Below are positions 6,445 through 26,858 of a DNA stretch of 55,513 nucleotides, piece by piece. Every line of letters begins with the position of its first letter. Within the stretch, counting starts at the first letter, position 1. Source of the stretch: Modestobacter excelsi (lineage in GTDB: Bacteria > Actinomycetota > Actinomycetes > Mycobacteriales > Geodermatophilaceae); NCBI RefSeq assembly GCF_005930495.1, contig NZ_SJEX01000022.1, forward strand, positions 1 through 55,513, given 5' to 3'. A program made the position numbers and the translations under genes. The notes beneath the pieces were generated by a model. It worked only from the letters and a program-made list of their open reading frames with translations, was not told the origin of the DNA and searched no databases.

Positions 6445-7836
6445 GTGTTCCGCGAATCGGTGTTCGGCACCCCGGACCGGTCGCACCGCCTGCGCACCGA
6501 CCCGACGGCCCACGGCCGCCGGCAGGGCCACCGGGTGGCACCCGCGGTCAGGGCCCGCGCCCGTGCGCTGGCCGGCCGCCTGATCACCCGGCGCATCCAG
6601 CGCAAGGGCATCGACCTGTCGGCGATGACCTTCATCCCGGAGCGCTCGAAGGTCCCCCTGCAGCGGATCGGCACCGACCCGGTGCCCCGGCTGGCCCAGC
6701 TGCGGGCCACCGACCCGGTGCACCGGCTGAGGTTCCCGTTCGACTTCCGGGTCTACCTGGTCACCGGCCACGAGCAGGTGCGTGCCGTGCTCGCCGACCG
6801 GGAGAACTACAGCAACGACATCCGGCACCTGCTGCCCGGCACCGGCCCGGGCACCGGGGAGGACGTCGGCGGGCTGGGCTTCACCGACCCGCCGGTGCAC
6901 ACCCGGCTGCGCAAGATCGTCACCCCGGAGTTCACGATGCGCCGGCTGGCCCGGCTCGAGCCGATGATCGAGCGGATCGTGGCCCAGCAGCTCGACGAGC
7001 TCGCCGCCGCCGGTCCGACCGCCGACCTCGCCAGGCTGGTGTCCTTCCCGGTGCCGTTCCAGACCATCTGCGCGCTGCTGGGGCTGGACCTCGACGACCG
7101 CGAGGCCTTCGCCCGGCTCGGTGTGCAGCGCTTCGACGCCACCGGCGGCGCCGCGGGCGCCTTCGGTGCGGTCTCCGAGCAGCGGGAGTTCCTCTTCGAC
7201 GCGGTGGCCCGGCAGCGCAAGGAGCCCGGGCCCGGCCTGATCGGCCAGATCATCCGGGACGAGGGTGACCTGATCTCCGACGTCGACCTGGCCGGGCTCG
7301 CCGACGGCGTCTTCACCGGCGGGTACGAGACGACCGCCGGGATGATCTCGCTGTCGACGATGGTGCTGCTGCGCGACCCGGCGCACGCCGAGCTGGTGCG
7401 CACCGGCAGCCGCGCCGACGTCGACCGCGTGGTCGAGGAGCTGCTGCGCCACCTCTCGGTCGTCCAGCTGGCCTTCCCCCGGTTCGCCAAGCGCGACACG
7501 GAGATCGCCGGGCAATCGCTGCGCGCCGGGGACGTCGTGCTCGCCTCGCTCAGCGGCGCCAACCGCGACCCGGCCACCGCAGGCGCCGACCCCGACGCCT
7601 TCGACCCGGCGCGGGTGCCCATCAGCGGTCACCTCGCCTTCGGGCACGGCATCCACCGCTGCATCGGCGCCGAACTGGCCCGGATGGAGCTGCGGATCCT
7701 GCTGCCGGCGCTGCTCCGGCGGTTCCCGGACCTCGCCGTCGCCGTCCCGTCCGAGCAGCTGGCCTTCCGGCCGCTGTCGTTCGTCTACGGCCTCGACGAG
7801 CTGCCCGTCCGGGTTGGCCCAGCGCTGACCGGGTAG
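6445..7836 (+). CDS. Cytochrome P450
   Basis: This is a 463-residue soluble bacterial P450, a haem-thiolate monooxygenase that uses electrons from a ferredoxin/reductase. Signatures are the oxygen-activating I-helix GGYETTAG (Thr296/Thr297), the K-helix ExxR within VEELLRHLS, and the haem loop [12 protein letters not shown] with axial Cys406. The start GTG 6445 follows GAAGGGG. The N-terminal 60 residues are basic and variable, about 40-60 residues longer than typical bacterial P450s, and could be partly untranslated if a later start is used. No ferredoxin or reductase gene is adjacent, so redox partners are encoded elsewhere. The substrate is unknown. Confidence 0.93.
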
Positions 7837-7871
7837 CCGTCCGTCGACACGTCCACGTCGAGGAGGACCAC

Positions 7872-8294
7872 ATGACAGCGAGCACTCCGGGCAGCTCGAC
7901 GGCCGACCTGGTGCAGTCCCTGACCAACGACGTCGGCGCGCTGGTGCGGCAGGAGCTGCGCCAGGCGCAGCAGGAGCTGGCCGACAAGGCCAAGCAGGTA
8001 GGCAGGGCCGGCGGGCTGCTCGGTGCAGCAGCGGTGCTCGGCACGCTGGCGGTCGGGACGTCGGGCGCGTTGGTCCTGCGGGTGCTCGAGCGGCGGTTCT
8101 CCCCCACCACGTCGGCGCTGCTGGCGACGGGGCTGTTCGGAGGTGCCGCCGGCGGGCTGGCGGTCACCGCCCTGCAGCAGCTCCGCGAGGCGGCGCCGCT
8201 GGTGCCGACGGGGACCGTCGCGAGCCTGCGCGAGGACGTGCGTGCCGCGACGGCCGCGACGCCGCCTGCGGACGGGACACCGCCGCAGCCCTGA
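7872..8294 (+). CDS. Actinobacterial Holin-X-like membrane protein (phage holin superfamily III)
   Basis: The protein has 140 residues. It begins with the amphipathic helix [30 protein letters not shown], typical of the Holin-X/DUF1469 family. Two hydrophobic helices follow ([22 protein letters not shown] and [20 protein letters not shown]) and then a polar tail. GAGGAGGA lies before the ATG. Despite the family name this is normally a chromosomal inner-membrane protein of unknown role, not evidence of prophage; no other phage gene is nearby. It follows the P450 gene by 35 nt and could be on the same transcript. Confidence 0.75.
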
Positions 8295-8315
8295 TCGGCG
8301 CGGACCGGCTCTCCG

Positions 8316-8885
8316 TCAGTGGGCGCCGGTGAGCTGCAGCTCCCGTGTCACGCGCCCGATCGCTGCGTCCAGCAGTGCCCGGACCTCCTCCAGCGAGCGC
8401 CCGGAGGTGTCGTTCCACCGGGTCAGGTCCTGCACCTGGAGCGTCCGGAGGGCGGGTGCGGGGCACCACCGGACGGGGCCCGGGTCGGTCGCCCGGTGGA
8501 GGGTGTGCCAGAGCAGGTCGAGGCTGCGCTGGGCCCGTTGCCCGCGGACGGCGGCCCGCCCCCCGGCAGCCAGGACCACCGCACCCACGAGACAGGCCGC
8601 CGGCTGCGCACCGGCACGCTCCTCCCCCGCTGCGGCGACCGCGGCGAGCGGCTGGGCGGTGAACCACGTCCCCTGCACCCAGCCTCGGCCGAGCAGGGCA
8701 CGTGCCTCGACCAGGACCTCGAGGATCCCGTGCAGCTCCGCCCGGGCTGCCGCCGTCCGGCCGGCGCGCGCGGCGGCCCGTCGGTGCTGCCGCGCTCCCC
8801 GCCGGCCGGGCGGTCCCGGGCGCGCCGCAGGGAGGGCTTCGTCGACGCCCGGGTGGACAGGGGGCACCGCGACGATGACGGTCAT
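8316..8885 (-). CDS. DUF6197 family protein
   Basis: The protein has 189 residues. The conserved part is a cysteine-containing helix (AACLVGAVVLAAGG), then LDLLWHTLHRAT, and the C-terminal signature WNDTSGRSLEEVRALLDAAIGRV, all typical of DUF6197 proteins in actinobacteria. The AGGA site before ATG 8885 supports the start, although the first 45 residues are Arg/Ala/Pro-rich and probably disordered. Function is unknown in the family. It converges with the Holin-X-like gene and is probably expressed alone. Confidence 0.7.
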   Translation of the reverse strand: MTVIVAVPPVHPGVDEALPAARPGPPGRRGARQHRRAAARAGRTAAARAELHGILEVLVEARALLGRGWVQGTWFTAQPLAAVAAAGEERAGAQPAACLVGAVVLAAGGRAAVRGQRAQRSLDLLWHTLHRATDPGPVRWCPAPALRTLQVQDLTRWNDTSGRSLEEVRALLDAAIGRVTRELQLTGAH

Positions 8886-9015
8886 GACAGGTCCTGGTGG
8901 CCGCTGGGAGGTCCGGGCAAGAACCGTAGGCCGCGTCCCGCCCGGGAGGAAGGGCCGCCGTCGCGTCAGCTCGGCTGGACGCGACCGGCGTCGATCGGCG
9001 TCCGGGGCCCCGGGC

Positions 9016-9199
9016 TCAGGGCAGCCCGGGCAGCAGCTCGTCCAGGGTGATCGGCAGCGACCGGACCCGGACGCCGGTGGCGTGGTGGACGGCTGGTGTT
9101 GCCCAGCCGCTCACGGAGCGCGTCCAGCAGCGTGGTGCGGGTGTCCACGGTGAGCCGGTGGCTCTCCCCGTCGACCCGCAGGGAGATCTCGGCGTCCAT
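9016..9199 (-). pseudogene. Deletion scar of a molybdenum hydroxylase (xanthine dehydrogenase-type) operon
   Basis: From ATG 9199 the frame encodes MDAEISLRVDGESHRLTVDT and then LLDALRERLG. That is the start of the small [2Fe-2S] subunit of xanthine/aldehyde oxidoreductases, but it stops resembling the family just before the expected cysteine loop. About 30 codons in, a different frame takes over and reads AVHHATGVRVRSLPITLDEL to a stop at 9016. This matches the extreme C-terminus of the molybdopterin-binding large subunit. In intact operons the order is small (FeS), FAD, large subunit, so everything between has been lost with a frame change. The product cannot function: no cysteine cluster, FAD or Mo domain remains. 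A run of ten G precedes the ATG. Confidence 0.75.
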
Positions 9200-9201
9200 G
9201 A

Positions 9202-9211
9202 CCCCCCCCCC
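9202..9211. repeat. C10/G10 homopolymer tract
   Basis: Ten consecutive C on the plus strand lie two bases upstream of the pseudogene ATG, so they are G10 in the position of its ribosome binding site. Such tracts are slippage-prone in replication and sequencing. Confidence 0.9.
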
Positions 9212-9382
9212 GGTGCCCGCCGGATCGCTGCTGCCCAACGCACCCCGCGGTGCCCGGCCGACGTGACGGAACCAACACGCAGGTGGACGGCGTGCGGCAT
9301 ACCGGGAGCCGAGCCGGGTACTGGCTGGCGGAGCAGGGCGGCGTACGTGGAAGAGTCGGCCCTCCCGACGACTGGACCGCCC

Positions 9383-10408
9383 ATGAGTGGCAATGCCACG
9401 CACCGTTTCCGCAACACCAGCGTCCTGACCGTGCAGACGGCCGACGCGTCGCAGGTGGTCACCTCCGACGACCTGGACGACCAGCTGGTCGACACCTACC
9501 GCCGGGTCGGGCTGCGCCCCGGCCTGCTCGAGCGGCTCTGCGGCATCCGCGAACGCCGCTGGTGGGCCGACGGCGTCACCTTCGTCGACGGCGCCGCGAT
9601 GGCCGGCGCCAAGGCGATCAGCGAGAGCGGCGTCGACCCGGCCGGCATCGGCGTCATGATCAACACGTCGGTGAGCCGCAAGTACCTCGAGCCCTCCACC
9701 GCCGTCGCCGTGCACGACGCGCTCGGCCTGCCCCGCTCGGCGCAGAACTTCGACGTCACCAACGCCTGCCTGGGCTTCATGAACGGCATGGAGCTGGCCG
9801 GGGCGATGATCGACTCCGGGCTGGTCGACCACGCGCTGATCGTCAACGGTGAGGACGCCCGGTCGGTCCAGGAGCGCACCATCGACCGGCTCAACCGCCC
9901 GGAGACGGTGGCCCGGGACGTGCTGTCCCAGTTCGCCACGCTGACCCTCGGCTGCGGCGCGGTCGCCATGGTGCTCGGCCGGACCGACCAGCACCCCGAG
10001 GGCCACCGGATGGTCGGCTCGGTCAGCCGGGCCGGCACCGAGCACCACGAGCTGTGCGTCGGCGACAACGACATGATGCGCACCGACCTCAAGGGCCTGC
10101 TCGACGCCGGGATCGGGCTCGGCGTCGACATGTGGACCGAGGCCGGCGAGGAGTTCGACTGGCACGGCGGCATGTCGCGCTACGTCATGCACCAGGTCTC
10201 GAAGGTGCACACCGCCGCGATGTGCGAGAAGTTCGGCATCGACGAGTCGCGGGTGCCCAAGACCTTCCCGACCCGGGGCAACCTGGGCCCGGCGTCGGTG
10301 CCGTTCACCCTGGCGACCGAGTCCGACGCGCTGGACGACGGCGACCGGGTGCTGCTCATGGGCGTCGGCTCGGGGCTGAACACCGCGTGCCTCGAGATCG
10401 AATGGTGA
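9383..10408 (+). CDS. oleA: OleA, thiolase-fold acyl-CoA condensing enzyme
   Basis: The product has 341 residues and is related to 3-oxoacyl-ACP synthase III. OleA joins two fatty acyl-CoAs head to head to a 2-alkyl-3-ketoacid, the first step of long-chain olefin synthesis. The thiolase triad is readable: nucleophile Cys129 in VTNACLGFMNG, His270 in YVMHQVSKVHT, and Asn300 in RGNLGPASVP. The C-terminal glycine-rich strand GVGSGLNTACLEIEW is typical. ATG 9383 is chosen since upstream in-frame codons are Arg/Pro-rich shadow; the ribosome site is weak. The stop overlaps the ATG of oleBC by 7 nt. Identity as OleA rather than a housekeeping FabH is strongly supported by the neighbouring oleBC and oleD. 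Confidence 0.92.
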   Translation: MSGNATHRFRNTSVLTVQTADASQVVTSDDLDDQLVDTYRRVGLRPGLLERLCGIRERRWWADGVTFVDGAAMAGAKAISESGVDPAGIGVMINTSVSRKYLEPSTAVAVHDALGLPRSAQNFDVTNACLGFMNGMELAGAMIDSGLVDHALIVNGEDARSVQERTIDRLNRPETVARDVLSQFATLTLGCGAVAMVLGRTDQHPEGHRMVGSVSRAGTEHHELCVGDNDMMRTDLKGLLDAGIGLGVDMWTEAGEEFDWHGGMSRYVMHQVSKVHTAAMCEKFGIDESRVPKTFPTRGNLGPASVPFTLATESDALDDGDRVLLMGVGSGLNTACLEIEW

Positions 10409-25643: not shown

Positions 25644-26759
25644 TCAGAGCGGGTCCACCGAGTCGGCCTGCAGGCCCTTCTGGCCGGGGCTGGCGGTGTA
25701 CTCGACCCGCTGGCCCTCGTCCAGGCTGCGATAGCCACCCCGGTCGGCGATCGCCGAGTAGTGCACGAACACGTCGTCCCCGCCGTCGTCGGGCTCGATG
25801 AACCCGAAGCCCTTCTCGGCGTTGAAGAACCGGACGGTGCCCTGCCCACCACCGCCGCCACCACCGCGCGGTGCGCGCGGCGCGCGGTCCCGGTCGCGCG
25901 GGGCGCTCTGCCGGCGGTCGTCCCGGGCCGGGGGCCGGCCACCGCCACCACTGCCCAGCGGCTGCACCGAGTCGGCCTGCAGCCCGCGCTGACCCGGGCT
26001 CGCGGAGTACTCGACCCGCTGGCCCTCGTCCAGGCTGCGGTAGCCACCGTCGTCGACGATCGCGGAGAAGTGCACGAACACGTCGTCCCCGCCCTCGTCG
26101 GGCTCGATGAAGCCGAACCCCTTCTCGGCGTTGAAGAAGCGCACCGTGCCCTGCGAGCCGCCACCGCCGCGCGGAGCGCGGTCGTTCCCGCGGTCGCGCG
26201 GCGCGGACTGCCGGCGGTCGTCGCGGGCCGGCGACCGGCCCCCGCCACCGAGCGGCTGGACGGAGTCGGCCTGCAGCCCGCGCTGACCCGGGCTGGCGGT
26301 GAACTCGACCCGCTGGCCCTCGTCCAGGCTGCGGTAGCCGCCGTCGTCGGCGATCGCGGAGAAGTGGACGAAGACGTCGTCCCCGCCGTCGTCGGGCTCG
26401 ATGAACCCGAAGCCCTTCTCGGCGTTGAACCAGCGGACCGTGCCCTCGGACCCGCTCCCGCCGCCGCCCCGGCCGGCCCGCGGCGCGCGGACCTGCCGCG
26501 GGTCGTCGCGGTGCCCGCGCTCCTCGCGGGCCGGCGCGCGACCGCCGCCGCCACCGAGGGGCTGGATGGAGTCGGCCTGCGGGCCGCGGTCCCCCGGGCT
26601 GGCGGTGTACTCGACCCGCTGCCCCTCGTCGAGGCTGCGGTAGCCCCCGTCGTCGGCGATCGCGGAGAAGTGCGCGAACACGTCCTGCCCGCCGTCGTCG
26701 GGCTCGATGAACCCGAACCCCTTCTCCGCGTTGAACCACTTGACCGTGCCCTGGGGCAT
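25644..26759 (-). CDS. Four-domain tandem cold-shock protein
   Basis: From ATG 26759 (GGAG eight bases upstream) the product has 371 residues with four complete cold-shock domains at about 1-68, 105-170, 202-268 and 305-371. Each begins [18 protein letters not shown] or a close variant (RNP1 KGFGFI) and contains DVFVHFSAI or variants (RNP2). The domains end in ADS(V/I)QPL. They are joined by 30-36 residue linkers rich in Gly, Arg, Asp and Pro (for example [14 protein letters not shown]), resembling RGG-type RNA-binding tails. Ordinary bacterial cold-shock proteins are single domains of about 67 residues. It probably binds several RNA or ssDNA sites at once. The domains are near-identical at DNA level with spacings of 306, 294 and 309 nt. 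Confidence 0.92.
25644..26759. repeat. Four imperfect tandem DNA repeats of about 300 bp
   Basis: Each cold-shock unit repeats at the nucleotide level (for instance GGGCTCGATGAACCCGAA recurs with few changes near 25791, 26099, 26397 and 26699), with variable Gly/Arg linkers between units. The repeats could recombine and change domain number. Confidence 0.85.
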
Positions 26760-26858
26760 CCTGCGACTCCTGCACATCTCGACGTCCTCGGCCCCGTGCC
26801 GGAGCCGATGGCACCCATTGTCCCAGCCTCCTGCCCGTCCGTGCCGGGCGGCGGCCGA

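Follow-up and report, generated by a model that had tools for sequence, protein, structure and literature searches.

A fused remnant of a PaoABC-like molybdenum hydroxylase operon beside oleA in Modestobacter excelsi

Relation to the PaoABC aldehyde oxidoreductase

The closest described system is the periplasmic aldehyde oxidoreductase PaoABC of E. coli (PDB 5g5g, 5g5h), which has the same three subunits as the intact operon of Modestobacter altitudinis 1G4 (G006; operon contig C89, stretch L063), the copy on which the identity of the lost enzyme was judged. According to two reports, the small subunit PaoA of E. coli carries a Tat leader (PMC3958847) and the gene of PaoD, a member of the XdhC family, closes the E. 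coli pao operon (PMC3909100). In the window, by which we mean the whole stretch of 55,513 nucleotides that was analysed, DNA of the soil bacterium M. excelsi, the corresponding operon is dead, unlike the E. coli system. Deletion-fusion pseudogenes, which represent gene loss by one short-homology deletion, offer the second comparison. Here as there, truncated end genes are joined at a few shared bases, the interior is gone and sister species are intact; nothing is different in kind, and the scale (3.4 kb, a whole enzyme) is unremarkable. The case is a clean, ordinary gene loss and touches no open question of general importance. It does provide a very clean snapshot of the one-step loss of a multi-subunit enzyme, in which the ends, the join and the intact arrangement are all readable. 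In a literature search, no paper treating xanthine dehydrogenase in Modestobacter was found and, going by titles, none on gene loss in Modestobacter genomes.

The three genes of the G006 operon have the Pfam domains Fer2/Fer2_2, FAD_binding_5/CO_deh_flav_C and Ald_Xan_dh_C/MoCoBD_1/MoCoBD_2, corresponding to [2Fe-2S], FAD and Moco subunits. PaoABC was the best PDB match for each of them (E 2.1e-61, 7.9e-82 and 2.2e-141), with the aldehyde oxidase 5y6q nearly as close for the large subunit (E 9.8e-140). Four cysteines of the PaoB insertion, which we take to be the site of a [4Fe-4S] cluster, are aligned in G006 (C-x9-C-x8-C and a later cysteine, compared with 5g5g chain B), and Glu660 of the G006 large subunit is aligned with residue 692 of 5g5h chain C, presumably the catalytic glutamate; this position falls inside the deleted part. 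Xanthine dehydrogenase was rejected as the lost enzyme, as the PaoABC structures were best for all three subunits. An earlier note on this DNA had spoken of the xanthine/aldehyde dehydrogenase type, and of that description the molybdenum hydroxylase remains, but as a PaoABC-like enzyme and not a xanthine dehydrogenase.

Several hallmarks of PaoABC were missed by the G006 copy. Its subunits stayed below the NCBIfam equivalog cut-offs (PaoC 639 bits, cut-off 1180; PaoA 255 bits, cut-off 322). No leader of the E. coli type was seen on the small subunit, where the alignment begins at residue 6 against chain residue 63, and an upstream GTG start that adds 29 residues brings in no hydrophobic stretch, as judged by eye. 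Finally, there is no XdhC/PaoD gene on the operon contig, XdhC_CoxI being found in G006 on contig C113 only; a gene of the XdhC family is present elsewhere both in G006 and in the window's own genome. Since the cut-offs, the leader and PaoD are all missed, the term PaoABC-like is used here and not strict PaoABC. Judged from the G006 sequences, the lost enzyme is PaoABC-like, being closest to the aldehyde oxidoreductase of E. coli, and is predicted to have oxidised aldehydes, and this strain and M. altitudinis 1G4 are likewise predicted to differ in aldehyde oxidation.

The scar and its junction

The features of the locus, in window coordinates, are as follows.

8316..8885, minus strand: DUF6197 gene, flank; neighbour of the operon in G006, G007 and G008 (Pfam PF19698, E 7e-17; synteny)
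8966..9199, minus strand: 77-aa reading frame made by the deletion, with the PaoA start and then out of frame (ORF reading)
9016..9093, minus strand: surviving 3' end of the gene for the molybdopterin (PaoC-like) subunit, final 25 codons and stop, in the other frame (tblastn, NCBIfam)
9091..9093: junction GGC (as read on the plus strand); relatives with the intact operon have it at each of the break points (alignment; overlap at 92-94 of two DNA matches)
9091..9199, minus strand: surviving 5' end of the gene for the [2Fe-2S] (PaoA-like) subunit, its first 36 codons with the start codon (DNA alignment, NCBIfam)
9202..9211, minus strand: G10 tract, 2 nt before the start codon of the remnant paoA (sequence and alignment)
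9383..10408, plus strand: oleA-type ketoacyl synthase III gene, flank; divergent from the lost operon (NCBIfam NF006720)

On the minus strand the ATG at 9199 is followed by MDAEISLRVDGESHRLTVDTRTTLLDALRERLGNTS, the end derived from the [2Fe-2S] subunit, and then, in a different frame, by AVHHATGVRVRSLPITLDELLPGLP, the end derived from the molybdopterin subunit, with a stop at 9018-9016. Profile positions 51-81 of 218 of NCBIfam PaoA were matched by the 5' half (E 9.1e-8), and positions 708-732 of 735, the very end of NCBIfam PaoC, by the 3' half of 25 aa (E 2.6e-5); in a Pfam search neither half gave a match. By tblastn against window 8886-9382, residues 673-697 of G006 PaoC were found at 92% identity (E 3e-12), and across window 9091-9223, upstream bases counted in, the DNA is 92.5% identical to G006. 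The scar thus retains the first 36 residues of the small subunit and residues 673-697 of the large subunit, and since it keeps these end residues only, the cluster cysteines, the FAD subunit and the active site are lost. It was suggested in the earlier note that the start of a small subunit is fused to the end of a large subunit in another frame, and both the NCBIfam PaoA and PaoC matches and the two-piece DNA matches given below agree with it. The 5' remnant does terminate before the first cluster cysteine, as that note had it, but the number of small-subunit codons is 36 and not about 30. Window 9016-9199 was in this way confirmed as what is left, in fused form, of a molybdenum hydroxylase operon of three genes. 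The G10 tract lies where the alignment has GGGAGG in G006 and GGGGGG in G007, and may reflect decay, a slippage-prone tract or a sequencing error.

Intact operon in relatives and origin of the scar

In a DNA search of window 9000-9260 against 59 genomes (own, genus, family and order), matches reaching E 0.001 were obtained in 45, often short and weak ones. The stronger matches were split in two pieces that meet at query 92-94 and lie about 3.4 kb apart in the target; in G006 the pieces were 1-94 (E 2.4e-37) and 92-224 (E 2.7e-50). Together with the matches to both profiles, these two-piece matches indicate that the scar is real and beyond chance. When 16 stretches from relatives were compared for the operon site, a complete three-gene operon was found between the DUF6197 gene and oleA in G006, G007 and G008, all of the same genus, as had been predicted, and neither of the contrary outcomes looked at (no hydroxylase at the site; halves with no subunit match) occurred. 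Among the examined stretches the DUF6197 gene was found only in these three, with a partial match in G008. In G006 the small (L063 6795-7301), FAD (7298-8314) and large (8311-10404) subunit genes overlap at their ends, and the two ends of the scar are homologous to the first and last operon genes of the relatives, in agreeing order and strand. Window 12-29753 (29.7 kb) runs collinear with C89 of G006, with 92-94% identity, and across that stretch the operon is the sole difference larger than about 300 bp, smaller ones being present. One of the features of the G006 copy is a segment of some 190 bp upstream of the intact operon (L063 6558-6774), which is missing in the window, in G007 and in G008.

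The gene name oleA was taken over from the earlier note; the gene scored 446 bits with NF006720 (cut-off 285) and is 99% identical in G006. That note had also drawn attention to the position of the loss beside the olefin genes, and the adjacency is real, but a functional meaning was not borne out. In the oleA tree, which rests on one gene only, the window and G006 form a pair with a support of 100, with G007 and G008 outside, which places the loss after the separation from the G006 lineage, whose sequence differs from the window by about 8% here. The loss had been called recent, and this holds in the sense of after the G006 split, but not as a date from substitutions. Counting as window-only those changes in which the window alone differs from G006, G007 and G008, with base 9093 counted in both parts, we found 3 in the 182 columns of the scar. 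Elsewhere the counts were 4 of 1023 for oleA, 20 of 1209 for the P450 gene, 85 of 3484 from oleB onward and 12 of 527 for the DUF6197 gene. As the intact copies have 3 (G006), 5 (G007) and 16 (G008) changes of their own in the same 182 columns, the scar is not evolving visibly faster; the few changes fit a young scar. Dating the loss by substitutions was rejected, the changes being too few, and no claim about rates is made.

Compared with G006 and with G008, 3,426 bp are missing from the window, and compared with G007, 3,429 bp. One event therefore fits the loss of a small-FAD-large operon, as had been proposed, but at this size and not at about 4 kb. We propose that the ancestral lineage carried, divergently from oleA, an operon of three genes encoding a molybdenum aldehyde oxidoreductase of the PaoABC-like type, and that a single deletion of 3,426 bp, by the G006 measure, would have joined paoA codon 36 to paoC codon 673. 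This would have removed the remaining paoA with its cluster cysteines, the whole of paoB and nearly all of paoC with the active-site glutamate, and the remainder would be a non-functional scar. It is possible that the deletion came about by end joining at a chromosome break, Ku and LigD-type proteins being encoded (Ku with one match in the own genome, LigD polymerase with three, two of them above the cut-off), or by replication slippage at GGC; faulty repair of a broken end, or else slippage, probably lies behind the deletion. When 20,000 pairs of points some 3.4 kb apart were drawn at random in the G006 stretch, 8.7% of them had at least 3 bp in common, so that the shared GGC is only a weak hint to the route of repair. 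The loss may have been tolerated because other molybdenum hydroxylases remain. That the scar arose from a PaoABC-like operon by one deletion, in the manner proposed here, we consider almost certain.

Since the genome is a draft of 178 contigs, a collapse or chimeric join might have produced the same picture, with the operon still in the strain and skipped by the assembly. Such an error would need a repeat of about the length of an assembler word, whereas the longest string common to the break-point neighbourhoods (60 bp on each side) has 8, 6 and 7 bp in G006, G007 and G008, respectively, and these strings do not lie at the break. A skipped operon would moreover be expected on another contig, yet the own assembly, rated 100% complete, has no close match. 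With L063 6904-10323 as query, 27 matches were obtained in the own genome, and the one with the best E-value was a paralogous small subunit (73% identity over 210 bases). With the G006 large subunit there were 11, the best at E 9e-26 and 30% identity, with 29-39% identity among the matches listed (7 of 11). As these matches are only paralogous, other molybdenum hydroxylases remain in the genome, and the absence of the missing DNA elsewhere in the own assembly argues against misassembly. Misassembly was rejected, as the break points offer no repeat that an assembler could have used and the rest of the assembly holds no close copy, and we regard it as very improbable.

It is also conceivable that the fusion made a functional small gene or a regulatory element, as the start codon is kept and the PaoA part has hardly changed, its one window-only change being at a third codon position. 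Codons are counted from 9199 for PaoA and from 9093, 106 bases further, for the PaoC remnant, and because the two frames differ, the PaoA frame continues beyond the join to a stop at 8968-8966, giving an open frame of 77 aa. Past the join, however, what this frame reads is the PaoC end, and then the sequence following it, out of frame, and no Pfam family was matched by it at E 0.001. Of the three window-only changes, two fall on first codon positions in the PaoC end, and the tract preceding the start is unlike that of the relatives. A functional scar thus seems even less probable than misassembly. The remaining reading, that the relatives gained the operon by insertion and that the window is the ancestral empty site, could draw on genus members in which the operon is not beside oleA, such as G010, G012 and G020, but an empty site would not hold the ends of the first and last genes in correct order and orientation, joined at GGC, and the probability of this reading is close to nil.

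Distribution in Modestobacter and a second loss

The distribution of the operon was surveyed in 23 genomes of the genus, own included, with the G006 large subunit as query. In 14 of them the large subunit was found at close to full length with at least 80% identity. Partial matches at 55-63% were found in G002, G011 and G015 (each at most 80% complete), and in six genomes (the own genome G000, G003, G014, G017, G018 and G019, the last 70% complete) the best match was 30-34% identical. In 9 of the 14 the operon adjoins oleA or nearly so, directly in G006, G007, G008 and G016 and with one P450 gene between in G001, G005, G009, G013 and G021. It lies away from oleA in the fetched stretches of G004, G010, G012 and G020, and in G022 (67% complete) a close oleA was not found. 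The large subunits of G020 (L073), G010 (L074) and G012 (L075) are 87-89% identical to that of G006, compared with 81-83% for those of G016 and of the G005 group, and the oleA tree does not put these three genomes nearer to G006; horizontal transfer or relocation is possible.

In the oleA tree G018 is grouped, with a support of 100, with G001, G005, G009, G013 and G021, all of which have the operon; the pairing of G018 with G009 has a support of only 66. G018 is without L070 7425-11183 of G021 (BLAST bounds), about 3.76 kb spanning the operon, and a separate gap of 1.1 kb lies about 370 bp from this deletion (G018 site L138 12680-13112). Its break coincides with the paoA start or falls no more than some 60 bp from it, in a part where identity fades out, and no PaoA remnant was found in the G018 stretch at E 0.05; the same threshold gave no operon remnants between the P450 gene and oleA in G014 and G002. 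The window, used as positive control, gave a PaoA match of E 2.5e-22 with 64% identity over 69 columns, an E-value that is flattering, as the match extends past the join. The small-subunit remnant (45 aa) gave no match at E 1e-5 in a tblastn search of a plasmid collection. The loss in G018 is a different deletion, independent of that in the window, and the two losses show that the operon is dispensable in the genus. Two deletion events do not establish a hot spot, and we think it rather unlikely that the operon is repeatedly shed in Modestobacter by independent deletions with a promoter-side break at or just inside paoA, the locus being deletion-prone or selected for loss.

Elsewhere in the window, the minus strand at 25644-26777 encodes a protein of 377 aa that comprises four cold-shock domains in tandem (Pfam CSD, 4 stretches, E 4.6e-108). 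Bacterial cold-shock proteins usually have one domain. The gene is a tandem repeat of 294 bp in 3.6 copies, and a repetitive array of G006 C89 is aligned to it as well.
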